Assembly: GCF_005281615.1 (NCBI RefSeq)
Contig: NZ_SZZM01000010.1
Location: forward strand, 1-50,020
Source of the DNA: Rhodoligotrophos defluvii
Lineage (GTDB): Bacteria > Pseudomonadota > Alphaproteobacteria > Rhizobiales > Im1
Length of the DNA stretch: 50,020 nucleotides
Direction: 5' to 3'
Shown: positions 8,044 to 12,699 of the stretch, piece by piece
Layout of the letters: every line of letters starts with the position of its first letter
Numbering within the stretch: position 1 is the first letter of the stretch
Position numbers and translations under genes: made by a program
The notes under the pieces: generated by a model
Database searches by the model: none
The model's input: only the letters and a program-made list of their open reading frames with translations
What the model was told of the DNA's origin: nothing

Positions 8044-9192
8044 ATGGTACTCGCGGAGATGATCGGTTCGGGGTTGTGGACGTTCCTGTCCTACCTCGTG
8101 CCGTTCCTGTTCGTGCTCACAATCGTCGTGTTCTTCCACGAGCTGGGGCATTTCCTCACGGCGCGGGCCTGCGGGGTGAAGGTGGACAGCTTCGCGGTCG
8201 GCTTCGGCCGGGCAATCGCGTCCTGGGTCGATCGGCACGGCACCGAGTGGCGAATCGGCTGGCTGCCACTCGGCGGCTATGTGAGCTTCCGCGGCGACAA
8301 GTCGGTGGCCAGCACGCCGGACGAAGCGGTGCTGGAGGCCGCCGCCCATGATCCTGCCGAAGCCAGCCAGCTGTTCCACAACAAGCCGCTTGCACAGCGC
8401 GCGGCGGTGGTGGCTGCGGGGCCGATCGCCAATTTCATCGTCGCCATCCTCATCTTCGCGGCCACTTTCATGATCGTCGGGCGCCATGTGGCCCCGCCGA
8501 TCGCCGACACGGTGCAGCCGGATACGCCGGCGGCTGCGGCGGGAATGCAACCGGGCGACGAGATCAAGACGGTGGATGGCCACGCGATCGAGACCTTCGC
8601 CGATCTGCAGCGCATCGTTTCCGGGAGCGCCGGCCAGCCGCTCACCCTCGGCATCCTGCGCGACGGCCGCCTCATCACCCTGCAGGTAACCCCGGCGGCC
8701 CGGGAGATCGAGGACCGGTTCGGGGGCAAGCACACCATCGGCATTCTGGGGATCACGGGCGGGGCGGGCGAGGGGGCACGCGTCGAGCGCTACGGCCCCG
8801 TGATGGCCTTGTGGAAAGGGGCCGAGCAGACCTGGTTCGTGATCACCAGCACCCTGAGCTATGTGGGTCAAGTGATCGTTGGCACTCAGTCTGCGGATCA
8901 GCTCGGCGGGCCGCTGCGGATCGCGCAGATGTCCGGGGAAATCGCGGGAATCGGCCTTCTCCCGCTTATCAACCTGGCTGCGGTGCTCTCGGTAAGCATC
9001 GGTTTGATCAACCTGTTTCCGATTCCGATACTTGATGGCGGCCACCTTTTATACTACGCCATTGAGGCTGTGAGAGGGAGGCCGCTCAGTCCGAGAGCAC
9101 AGGATCTGGGCTTCAGAGTGGGAATGGTCCTGGTCTTGATGCTGATGCTGTTCGCGACGTGGAACGACCTTATCCACTTCGAACTGTTTTGA
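8044..9192 (+). CDS. rseP: RIP metalloprotease RseP (site-2 protease)
   Basis: Intramembrane zinc protease that cleaves anti-sigma factors and membrane remnants in envelope-stress signalling. The 382-residue protein has the zinc site HELGH at residues 32-36 in the first membrane helix, one recognisable PDZ region in the middle (DTPAAAAGMQPGDEIKTVDG), and the third-ligand motif NLFPIPILDGGH near the C terminus. E. coli RseP is longer (about 450) with two PDZ domains; the single-PDZ form is usual in alphaproteobacteria. It precedes bamA, matching the usual order. Confidence 0.95.
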   Translation: MVLAEMIGSGLWTFLSYLVPFLFVLTIVVFFHELGHFLTARACGVKVDSFAVGFGRAIASWVDRHGTEWRIGWLPLGGYVSFRGDKSVASTPDEAVLEAAAHDPAEASQLFHNKPLAQRAAVVAAGPIANFIVAILIFAATFMIVGRHVAPPIADTVQPDTPAAAAGMQPGDEIKTVDGHAIETFADLQRIVSGSAGQPLTLGILRDGRLITLQVTPAAREIEDRFGGKHTIGILGITGGAGEGARVERYGPVMALWKGAEQTWFVITSTLSYVGQVIVGTQSADQLGGPLRIAQMSGEIAGIGLLPLINLAAVLSVSIGLINLFPIPILDGGHLLYYAIEAVRGRPLSPRAQDLGFRVGMVLVLMLMLFATWNDLIHFELF

Positions 9193-9327: not shown

Positions 9328-11646
9328 ATGCGCTATCGGTTTGTAATTGCCGCCTGTCTGGCTCTGCTCTTGACCGCTTTGGGACCGATCGCGGGGATCG
9401 GTTTCACGGCCGGCGAGGCGCACGCGCAGACAGTGTCGCGTATCGCTGTCGAGGGGAATCAGCGTATCGACCCCGAGACCGTCACCGCCTACATGCAAAT
9501 CGGACCGGGCGACCCGTTCGATGCCGAGCGCATCGACCAATCGCTGAAGGCTCTGTTCCAGACAGGCCTGTTCTCGGACGTCCAGATCTTCCGCCGCGGC
9601 AACGTGCTCGTGGTGCATGTGGAGGAGAACCCGCTGATCAACCAGATCAGCTTCGAGGGCAACAGCGAGATCACCGACGAGAATCTCGGCAAGGAGGTCG
9701 AGCTCAAGCCGCGCATGGTCTTTACCCGCGCCCGGGTGCAGAGCGACGTGCAGAGGCTGCAGGCTCTCTACAGGCGGTCCGGCCTGTTTGCGGCCCGGAT
9801 CGAGCCGAAGGTGATCCGTCTGCCGCAGAACCGGGTCAACCTGGTGTTCGAGATCACCGAGGGCGCCACAACCCGCATCCAGCGCATTACCTTCATCGGC
9901 AACGAGGCGTTCGATTCGGGCCAGCTGCGCGATGTGATCACCACCGAGGAATCGCGCTGGTGGAAGTTCCTGTCCACGTCCGACAACTACGATCCGGATC
10001 GGCTGGCCTATGACCGGGAGCTGCTCCGGCGGTTCTACCTGAACCACGGCTATGCGGATTTCCAGGTGCTGTCGGCCACGGCCGAGCTCGCGCCGGACGG
10101 GGAGAATTTCTACATCACCTTCACGGTCTATGAAGGACCGCAGTACAACTTCGGCCCGGTCGCCGTCGACCCCGGCAGCACCAATCTCAGCCCCGAGGAG
10201 CTGATGGAGCGGGTCCGGACGCGCAGCGGCGACGTCTATAGCGCGGAGCTGGTCGACTCCACGGTCGAACGCCTGACGGTCGAGGCCGGCACCTCCGGCT
10301 ATGCCTTCGCGAAGGTGCGGCCGCGCATCGAACGCGACGAGCAGACGCGGACCATAGGGCTGACCTATACGCTCGAGGAAGGGCCGCGGGTCTATATCGA
10401 GCGCATCGACATCGTCGGCAACACGCGCACCCAGGACAACGTCATCCGGCGGGAGATCCGGCTGGTCGAGGGCGATGCCTATAACCGGGTGCTGGTGGAC
10501 CGGGCCCGGCGCCGCATCACCGCGCTGGATTTCTTCAGCAAGGTCGACATCATCGAGCAGCCGGGCAGCGCGCCCGACCGCGTGGTGCTGATCGTGCAGG
10601 TTGAGGAGAAGTCGACCGGTACCCTCAACTTCGCGGCCGGTTACTCGACCTCGGAGGCGGTGGTCGGATCGGTGAGCGTCACCGAGCGCAACCTGCTGGG
10701 CAAGGGGCAGTTCGTCCGACTGGCGACATCGCTGAGCTTCAAGCGCCAGGAGGTCGACTTCAGCTTCACCGAGCCGTATTTCCTCGGGCGCAACCTGTCG
10801 GCGGGCATCGACGCCTATGCGACGCGCACGGATCAGCAGGACGAGTCGTCCTTCGACGTGCGCCAGCTGGGTGGCGGGTTCCGCTTCGGCTTCCCGCTAT
10901 CGGAAAACGGCCGCATAACGACGCGGTACAACTTCACCAACCGGCGCATCTGGAACGTTCCGGAAAACGCCTCGCAAGCCATTCTGCAATCCAAGGGCAC
11001 CACGAATATCTCGCTGGTCGGGGCCACCTACGTCTATGACATGCTGGACAACCCGCTGAACCCGACCTCGGGCTACCGGTTCCAGCTGTCGACCGACGTG
11101 GCGGGCCTCGGCGGCGATGCCCAGTGGGCGAGGGCGGAACTCGCCGGCTATTACTTCTATCCCATCTGGGACGGCGTCGTGTTCATGGCGCGCGGCACGG
11201 CCGGCCATATGGAGCCGCTCGGCAAGGAGATCCAGCCGATCGACCGCTTCTTCAAGGGCGGCAACTCGTTCCGCGGCTTCGAGCGCGCCGGTATCGGCCC
11301 GCGCGACATCTCGACCTCGCGGGACGATGCGCTGGGCGGCTATACCTACGGCATCGGCACGCTGGAAGTGACGTTCCCGCTCGGTCTGCCCGAGGAGTTC
11401 GGAATTCGGGGCGCGGTGTTCACCGACTTCGGCACGCTGTTCAACGCACCCGACAACTTCAAGTGCTCGAACGACTACACGAAGTGCTTGGTGGGCGACA
11501 AAGCCGAGTTCCGGGCGTCCGCGGGTGCCAGCGTGATCTGGCAGTCGCCGTTCGGTCCGCTGCGCTTCGACTTCGCGGAAGCCCTGCTGAAGGAGAAGTA
11601 TGACAAGACCGAGTGGTTCCGCTTCAGCGTCGGCACGCAGTTCTAA
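9328..11646 (+). CDS. bamA: Outer membrane assembly factor BamA
   Basis: Inserts beta-barrel proteins into the outer membrane. The 772-residue protein has a signal peptide (about residues 1-34, probable cleavage after GEAHA), a periplasmic part with repeated POTRA-like units (for example VSRIAVEGNQRID, ISFEGNSEITDE, IQRITFIGNEAFD, IERIDIVGNTRTQDN) and a C-terminal barrel from about residue 420. It ends in Phe (FSVGTQF), the usual barrel signal. Its presence shows a genuine outer membrane, which matters because lpxD, normally next, is absent. Confidence 0.97.
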   Translation: MRYRFVIAACLALLLTALGPIAGIGFTAGEAHAQTVSRIAVEGNQRIDPETVTAYMQIGPGDPFDAERIDQSLKALFQTGLFSDVQIFRRGNVLVVHVEENPLINQISFEGNSEITDENLGKEVELKPRMVFTRARVQSDVQRLQALYRRSGLFAARIEPKVIRLPQNRVNLVFEITEGATTRIQRITFIGNEAFDSGQLRDVITTEESRWWKFLSTSDNYDPDRLAYDRELLRRFYLNHGYADFQVLSATAELAPDGENFYITFTVYEGPQYNFGPVAVDPGSTNLSPEELMERVRTRSGDVYSAELVDSTVERLTVEAGTSGYAFAKVRPRIERDEQTRTIGLTYTLEEGPRVYIERIDIVGNTRTQDNVIRREIRLVEGDAYNRVLVDRARRRITALDFFSKVDIIEQPGSAPDRVVLIVQVEEKSTGTLNFAAGYSTSEAVVGSVSVTERNLLGKGQFVRLATSLSFKRQEVDFSFTEPYFLGRNLSAGIDAYATRTDQQDESSFDVRQLGGGFRFGFPLSENGRITTRYNFTNRRIWNVPENASQAILQSKGTTNISLVGATYVYDMLDNPLNPTSGYRFQLSTDVAGLGGDAQWARAELAGYYFYPIWDGVVFMARGTAGHMEPLGKEIQPIDRFFKGGNSFRGFERAGIGPRDISTSRDDALGGYTYGIGTLEVTFPLGLPEEFGIRGAVFTDFGTLFNAPDNFKCSNDYTKCLVGDKAEFRASAGASVIWQSPFGPLRFDFAEALLKEKYDKTEWFRFSVGTQF

Positions 11647-11717
11647 GCGCCGGACGACCGGCTCCGCCCATGGGCAGACTGGAAAGCCGTTGGTCTTTTC
11701 TGTTCATTCCTCTAAAC

Positions 11718-11747
11718 AGGCCGGCAAAATATGCCGGCCTTTCCTTT
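11718..11747 (+). terminator. Intrinsic terminator after bamA
   Basis: AGGCCGGC (11718-11725) and GCCGGCCT (11733-11740) form an eight-base GC-rich stem with a seven-base loop, followed by TTCCTTT. It should end the rseP-bamA transcript and make fabZ a separate unit. Confidence 0.75.
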
Positions 11748-11816
11748 GCGCGAGGATACTGGCGGCTTGGCGTTCGCCTGGCCTGTAGACAAGTCTGATG
11801 GGGTTGCTGGACCAGC

Positions 11817-12290
11817 ATGGTGACCGACGTCTCTAAGCCGGGACTGGACGCGGCCGATATCAACCGCGTGCTGCAGTTGCTGCCTCACCGATACCCATTC
11901 CTGATGATCGACCGTATCGTCGACATGGACGGGGATCTGTCGGGGATCGGCATCAAGAACGTGACCATCAACGAGCCGTATTTCGCCGGCCACTTCCCGG
12001 GCGCGCCGGTGATGCCCGGGGTCCTGCTGATCGAAGCCATGGCACAGACCGCAGGCGGGCTGGTGGTGGCCAGCCGCGGCGAGGAGGGGCAGGGAAAGCT
12101 CGTCTATTTCATGACCATCGACAAGGCGCGATTTCGCAGGCCCGTGGTGCCGGGTGACACGGTGAAGATCCACGTGCAGCTGCTGCGCAAGCGCGCCAAT
12201 GTGTGGAAGTACAGGGGAGAGGCCCGGGTCGACGGGCGGCTTGCGGCGGAAGCGGAGATCAGCGCCATGCTGACCGAAGCCAAGCTTTAG
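11817..12290 (+). CDS. fabZ: 3-hydroxyacyl-ACP dehydratase FabZ
   Basis: Dehydrates 3-hydroxyacyl-ACP in type II fatty acid synthesis. The 157-residue hotdog-fold protein contains [14 protein letters not shown] near residue 21 and the catalytic block [20 protein letters not shown] (His near residue 60, Glu near 74). The annotated ATG is 1817 after the window's 10-kb mark, within 76 bases of the bamA terminator. In most alphaproteobacteria fabZ lies between lpxD and lpxA; here it has neither neighbour, which leaves it as the only acyl-chain gene of that cluster. Confidence 0.96.
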
Positions 12291-12699
12291 ATCAATCGCG
12301 GCCAATTTGCACCACAGCTAGGCTCTAGGCCGGTGATGACGAAGGCAGGGCGGTTGAGCGAGACCGTCTTGCCCCGGCTTGACCGGGGCATCCAGGGCCA
12401 CGCGGCATAGGCGTTCCGCTTGACCCCTGGATTGCCGCGTCAAGCGCGGCAGTGACGAGAGGAGCCGGTGTTCCTCCCCCGCCCCGTCATGCCGGCCGCG
12501 CCGAGGCGCCGAGCCGGCATCCAGGGCCACACGGCACGAACTCCCTTGCGGCCCCTGGATTGCCGCGTCAAGCGCGGCAATGACGAGAGGGGGCGTATGG
12601 AGCTCATCGTCATGCCGGCCGCGCTGAGGCGCCGAGCCGGGCATCTAGGGCCACACGGCACGAACTCCCAAAGCCGCCCAACACCCTCAACTCGAGACC
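12291..12699. repeat. Cluster of REP-like palindromic repeats between fabZ and the cyd operon
   Basis: This gene-free junction between converging genes is built from at least three kinds of short inverted repeat. CCCCGGCTTGACCGGGGC lies at about 12371. TTGCCGCGTCAAGCGCGGCA-type palindromes occur at about 12432-12452 and 12560-12580. A 60-base unit beginning CGTCATGCCGGCCGCG and ending CGGCACGAACTCCC occurs at 12485-12545 and 12608-12669. All carry CCAGGG or CCTGG next to the palindrome. The 60-base unit recurs in opposite orientation near 24440 and 24563. Confidence 0.85.

Follow-up and report, generated by a model that had tools for sequence, protein, structure and literature searches.

By sequence, the genome of Rhodoligotrophos defluvii (G000) lacks the six gene families of the Raetz pathway of Kdo2-lipid A synthesis (LpxA, LpxC, LpxD, LpxB, LpxK and KdtA), and keeps LptD together with an LptF/LptG pair of a distinct type, located in a cluster of sphingolipid genes. 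Lipid A is the anchor of the usual Gram-negative surface. The loss of its genes extends to a number of relatives of this bacterium, and is repeated among them. We consider it likely that an anionic sphingolipid has taken the place of lipid A, and that the Lpt machine exports it with the help of a dedicated LptFG pair.

The window, that is the whole stretch of 50,020 nucleotides analysed, carries genes in the order rpsB-tsf-pyrH-frr-uppS-cdsA-dxr-rseP-bamA, followed by a short gap and fabZ. Cytochrome bd subunit genes are found past fabZ and a set of repeats, on the minus strand. The features of the site are the following:

8044 to 9192, plus strand: rseP, site-2 protease (TIGR00054, 282.8 bits, cut-off 147.55)
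9328 to 11646, plus strand: bamA, the last gene ahead of the usual lpxD start site (TIGR03303, 780.1 bits, cut-off 297)
11647 to 11816: bamA-fabZ gap of 170 bases, lpxD missing, no remnant
11718 to 11740, plus strand: terminator-like hairpin, 9-pair stem and T-rich tail
11817 to 12290, plus strand: fabZ, kept, with no lpxA, lpxI or lpxB after it (PF07977, 126.7 bits)
12387 to 12669: imperfect repeats at intervals of about 125 bases, separating fabZ from the cytochrome bd genes

The preliminary description had read this site as rseP-bamA followed, after a clear terminator at 11718-11747, by fabZ, a repeat cluster and the cyd operon. The genes were found where it placed them, with profile matches, as were the repeats and the cytochrome bd genes. 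The hairpin, by its stem and tail, is terminator-like, but its count (1 found against 0.8 expected in shuffles) is not significant. The remark that only 170 bases are left for lpxD, and that nothing like lpxA, lpxI or lpxB follows fabZ, proved correct. In tblastn searches of the window, with frames covering those of two relatives, no counterpart of LpxD, LpxA, LpxI or LpxB was detected, and the region from bamA to the cyd genes gave a single match, to a frame antisense to fabZ. The order bamA-lpxD-fabZ-lpxA-lpxI-lpxB, assumed to be the usual one, is present and followed by gltA in the lipid A-positive relatives G034 (L138) and G094 (L140), where lpxI and gltA were identified by position and by eye. 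The repeats occupy the place that lpxA-lpxI-lpxB have in the relatives.

Two options had been left open, that the genes had moved elsewhere or that the lineage lacks classical lipid A, and a search of the full genome had been proposed to decide. The G000 assembly (5.49 Mb, 20 contigs, 99.86% complete, 1.04% contamination) gave 0 matches for each of the six families genome-wide, and no complete lpx set sits elsewhere; E. coli and Caulobacter vibrioides, used as positive controls, were found every time. The first option is thus refuted for the six families, and the second is supported. The search for LptD, proposed at the same time, was positive. In the other sampled members of the family (G004, G055, G092) none of the six families is over cut-off. 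LpxD matches below cut-off in G092, G121, G122 and G114 sit, by eye, in MurE-like proteins, and that of G037 in a 311-residue hexapeptide-repeat-like protein; all were discarded.

The survey was extended to 121 genomes drawn from the order of the host. LpxC is missing in 22 of them, and all six families are below cut-off in 21, spread over 15 genera. The remaining genome, G089 (84% complete), has no LpxC or LpxD match; as LpxA, LpxB, LpxK and KdtA are present, it has been treated as an incomplete assembly. All 9 LpxC-positive genomes of the first panel also have LpxD and LpxB. When G006, G094 and G076 are added to the panel, KdtA and LpxK are found in 12/12 LpxC-positive genomes and LpxA in 11/12. 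The one missing LpxA is G006, which has LpxC, LpxK and KdtA; this genome gives no BamA match either, and a gap at the LpxA site is therefore probable. In G121 (Taklimakanibacter lacteus), G122 and G123 the five families other than LpxC are below cut-off. T. lacteus is placed in Hyphomicrobiales, Aestuariivirgaceae, and falls inside the order of G000 on the BamA tree, so that G000 probably belongs to Hyphomicrobiales as well. On this tree of 30 genomes the trait must have changed 6 times, and supported branches force 5 or more of these changes; losses and regains are counted alike, and G121, G122 and G123 are taken as lipid A-less.

One change can be followed within a genus. G111 belongs to the same genus as G034 and G076, both of which have LpxC and two LptFG pairs. 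In G111 the lpxA-lpxI-lpxB stretch, about 2.9 kb long in G034, is gone from between fabZ and gltA, and of lpxD only a fragment is left, which aligns with residues 103-281 of 357. No housekeeping LptFG pair is found either, and LptD, serine palmitoyltransferase (Spt) and the cluster LptFG are kept. G034, G076 and G117 each host a second, divergent LpxC; it scores 229-231 bits, and the usual copy 323-327.

Genes of G000 relevant to lipid export and synthesis, the latter lying in a cluster outside the window, are:

LptD, contig C3 (PF04453, 8.6e-69)
LptF/LptG pair, contig C2 (PF03739, 2.2e-66 and 3.3e-57), the sole two matches in the genome
Spt, contig C2 (NF047599, 586.3 bits, cut-off 500)
acyl-AMP ligase, cluster (NF006624, 765.9 bits, cut-off 600)
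GNAT-like protein, putative N-acyltransferase, cluster (20.5 of 20.7 bits)
epimerase/reductase-like protein, cluster (the counterpart in the sister G055 matches PF01370)
acyl carrier protein-like frame, cluster (the counterpart in G055 matches PF00550)
DAGK-type kinase (DAGK_cat in G055; a 76% identical full-length frame in G000)
CDP-alcohol phosphotransferase, cluster (PF01066)
cytidylyltransferase-like protein, cluster (best solved relative 1jyk, a phosphocholine cytidylyltransferase)
protein with no Pfam match beside spt, where CpgC might stand

Of the bacterial ceramide synthesis set (Spt, AcpR, AasR, CerR, CerS), Spt is present by its profile match, and the acyl-AMP ligase, the acyl carrier protein-like frame and the reductase-like and GNAT-like proteins are candidates for the rest. 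The kinase, the phosphotransferase and the cytidylyltransferase-like protein may likewise belong to a ceramide diphosphoglycerate (CPG2) set, in which CpgB is the ceramide kinase and CpgD the cytidylyltransferase, next to CpgA and CpgC. The parts by which an Lpt exporter was recognized, LptD and an LptF/LptG pair, are both found in G000. LptF (210.7 of 230 bits) and LptG (222 of 240) score slightly under the NCBIfam equivalog cut-offs. The pair is 3.3 kb from the Spt gene on C2; lptD is on C3, and frames downstream of it resemble, by eye, surA, pdxA and ksgA. LptFG adjoins lptD in 11 of the 12 lipid A-positive panel genomes holding both; only in G125 do the two fall on separate contigs. Among the 21 lipid A-less genomes LptD is found in 18, and LptF/LptG in 18. 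Curtailment is more severe in G051 and G088 (family f51) and in G066 (family f20, 1.4 Mb). In these three genomes, 95-99% complete, no lipid A family, LptD, LptFG or Spt is over cut-off, and BamA is kept; the sphingolipid route proposed here is therefore not the only one. The idea that the DAGK-like gene might be broken in G000 was dismissed, as tblastn gives one full-length frame. An OlsC/LpxO-like aspartyl/asparaginyl hydroxylase, below both NCBI cut-offs, is encoded in the sphingolipid cluster at 2132-2968 of L042, and might hydroxylate one of the acyl chains of the ceramide.

The composition of the cluster recurs in relatives. Twenty stretches were compared; LptFG pairs or LptG stand at the centre of 19 of them, and a stray LptF at that of the other one, L060. 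Neighbours include a metallophosphoesterase in 18, CDP-alcohol phosphotransferase, a GNAT-like protein and each of two nucleotidyltransferase-like proteins in 16, Spt and acyl-AMP ligase in 15, and an MsbA-like ABC protein in 14. These figures are approximate, as automatic codon-position GC calls took some antisense frames, and some stretches end at contig ends. Spt is over cut-off in 20/121 genomes, 16 of the 21 that are lipid A-less versus 4 of the other 100 (99 LpxC-positive genomes and G089; p 2e-12 by Fisher test); when only genomes of high quality are counted, the figures are 13/16 versus 3/91 (p 2e-11). Both Fisher tests ignore relatedness. LptF and/or LptG lie at most 6 kb from Spt, on the same contig, in 18 of the 20 Spt-positive genomes. 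In one genome, G104, only LptG is near Spt, and in G022 and G014 LptFG and Spt are on different contigs. The five lipid A-less genomes having no Spt over cut-off are G051, G088, G066, G062 (86% complete) and G114 (71%); the last two have the cluster LptFG nonetheless. In family f19, the LpxC-positive genomes G019 (L103) and G101 (L106) feature a second LptFG about 4 kb from an Spt-like gene, which scores 467-470 of 500 bits, just under cut-off.

LptFG pairs fall into two types, and the pair of G000, as judged from alignment scores and trees, is not of the housekeeping type linked to lptD. Scores against G000 LptF/LptG are 296-898 bits for cluster proteins in the main clade, to which the cluster copies of G006 and G094 belong, 64-220 bits for the cluster copies of G034, G076, G111 and G123, and 38-102 bits for housekeeping copies. 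The pair found in the genus of G034 may be a separate recruitment. In an LptG tree of 46 rows, cluster and housekeeping types are split with an SH-aLRT of 96. G101_L106, which is adjacent to Spt and labelled housekeeping by default, falls on the housekeeping side, where its branch is very long; when it was left out of a wider FastTree, cluster LptG proteins formed one group at 78. G006, G094, G034 and G076, all four positive for both Spt and LpxC, have one pair of each type. LptFG is kept in 18 lipid A-less genomes, and typing covered all of these but G078; the cluster type is present in 17/17, and 16/17 have no housekeeping type. The exception is G014, in which a housekeeping-like LptG is found by a very divergent LptF on a separate contig:

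L131 (contig C197), 354 to 1583 and 2500 to 3615, opposite strands: housekeeping-like LptG and divergent LptF of G014

Extra LptF/LptG-like proteins are encoded by G036, G113, G068, G104, G037, G079 and G114, some falling with cluster LptF and others making up a third type; these proteins (L060, L128-L136) were typed in FastTree only. L132, L133 and L134 (G037, G079 and G114, respectively) are further pairs of the third, divergent type, located on other contigs. When presence of lipid A and of housekeeping LptFG was compared in a tree-based paired test, 5 pairs on supported branches were available, of which 4-5 agree and 0 oppose. The result (p 0.06-0.125) is consistent with joint loss, the pairs being too few for significance.

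The two LptG types also differ in charge. With E. coli LptG as position ruler, 22 housekeeping and 23 cluster proteins were compared. The K40 position is R in 21/22 housekeeping proteins; in cluster proteins it is K or R in 2/23 and D or E in 11/23. The K41 position is K or R in 20/22 housekeeping versus 1/23 cluster proteins, being acidic (D or E) in 22/23 of the latter. The D37 position is D or E in 22/22 housekeeping proteins, and includes 3 D and 14 T among the 23 cluster ones. In the part of PMC6744409 used here, the LPS-bound Shigella structure is described as having contacts of K40 with the 4'-phosphate, K41 with the inner core and D37 with the glucosamines. How an acidic pair would hold an anionic lipid is not obvious. 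As a sign of substrate the signature is only suggestive, because the K34 position is acidic in both types, and because a K40E/K41E double mutant grew normally and the two residues are called not conserved, according to the portion of PMC5548808 consulted.

Lpt parts kept beside sphingolipid genes suggest that the machine has been given new cargo. In the explanation that we favour, lipid A synthesis has been lost from the lineage, and an anionic phospholipid built on ceramide, of the type of ceramide-phosphoglycerate, would fill the outer leaflet of the outer membrane. This lipid would be made by the cluster, on another contig than the window, through acyl-AMP ligase, acyl carrier protein, Spt, the reductase-like protein, the GNAT-like N-acyltransferase, the DAGK-type kinase, the cytidylyltransferase-like protein and CDP-alcohol phosphotransferase. 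It would be flipped by the cluster-borne MsbA-like ABC protein, extracted from the inner membrane and loaded on the Lpt bridge by the cluster LptF/LptG, unlike the housekeeping pair, and inserted in the outer membrane by the retained LptD. A bacterium owning this second route could dispense with lipid A and the LptFG pair dedicated to it, which would have been lost together, several times. We infer which structure the lipid has, how abundant it is, where it lies and in what order the events took place, and likewise, by association, transport by Lpt.

Other explanations are less convincing. That the lpx genes have moved, or lie in assembly gaps, is hardly credible. The G000 assembly is in 20 contigs, and gaps do occur, as one can hide LpxC in G089, and G006 has an incomplete set; yet six separate gap losses in a genome as complete as that of G000 are implausible, and among the relatives in which all six families are below cut-off G055 and G092 are single-contig genomes. 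A single ancestral loss of lipid A, followed by regain through transfer in the lineage of G094 and in others, is very improbable. G094 is found among lipid A-less genomes in the BamA tree (92/88, an open fork), and the change count fits loss or gain alike; against this, G094 has the ordinary bamA-lpxD-fabZ-lpxA-lpxI-lpxB order, and G111 looks like a loss in progress inside another genus.

Rather less improbable, though still unlikely, is that lipid A is gone and the outer leaflet consists of phospholipid or of another lipid (ornithine lipid, hopanoid), the sphingolipid being minor and LptD and LptFG having other cargo. In favour of this, G051, G088 and G066 live with neither lipid A nor LptD, LptFG or Spt over cut-off. 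Against it stand the association of Spt with lipid A-less genomes, the position of LptFG among the genes around Spt, and G111, from which lipid A genes and housekeeping LptFG have gone jointly.

We also lean, with somewhat less assurance than for the replacement itself, to the wider notion that LptF/LptG pairs act as interchangeable adaptors to one LptD, one pair for lipid A and another for an anionic sphingolipid; owning a second pair would predispose the order to lipid A loss, and joint losses would leave a sphingolipid-only Lpt.

Partial parallels are known. Sphingomonas is described, in the sections of PMC11324152 cited here, as an alphaproteobacterium without LPS in which sphingolipid synthesis is seemingly essential, and S. 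wittichii as having its sphingolipid genes scattered over the genome. G000 is alike in having sphingolipid genes and no match for the lipid A genes. It belongs however to another order, its genes are in one cluster, the headgroup genes of its group suggest a phospho-headgroup, and lipid A-positive sisters are available in its order for comparison. By gene content the cluster resembles the ceramide diphosphoglycerate cluster of Caulobacter crescentus, where ceramide genes, a ceramide-kinase-type gene, a cytidylyltransferase and LptF/LptG are in one region. For the Caulobacter genes CC_1152-CC_1168, Olea-Ozuna et al. use the names LptC2/F2/G2 and propose selective sphingolipid transport, a proposal given as untested in the same sections (PMC11324152), and an anionic sphingolipid supports life without LPS in Caulobacter, according to the extracts used of PMC11324152, PMC12275187 and PMC10331486. 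In that species, however, lipid A is lost only in mutants and LptF2/G2 are a second pair, whereas in the G000 group its absence is natural, and G000 has no LptFG match other than the cluster pair. LptD, LptF and LptG families are those of the lipopolysaccharide exporter LptB2FGC-A-DE, but G000 has no lipid A genes, and its LptFG is of the other type, which mostly lacks the basic K40/K41 pair.

The transporters taking bacterial sphingolipids to the outer membrane are stated to be not known in the excerpts used of PMC11324152 and PMC11087976. Among the matches listed from the openly licensed PMC literature, no title or opening of an abstract reports lipid A loss in this order. As LPS-free sphingolipid membranes are known from Sphingomonas, the kind of membrane is not new; what is new is that, in another order, the changes recur and can be traced, and LptFG types are partitioned. 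Repeated natural changes that remove lipid A genes together with housekeeping LptFG, and spare LptD and the sphingolipid-linked LptFG, point to Lpt as the carrier, and lipid A-positive and lipid A-less relatives are matched material for a test of transport. The repeated losses bear on when lipid A is dispensable. If the explanation is true, these would be natural bacteria whose Lpt machine carries only sphingolipid.
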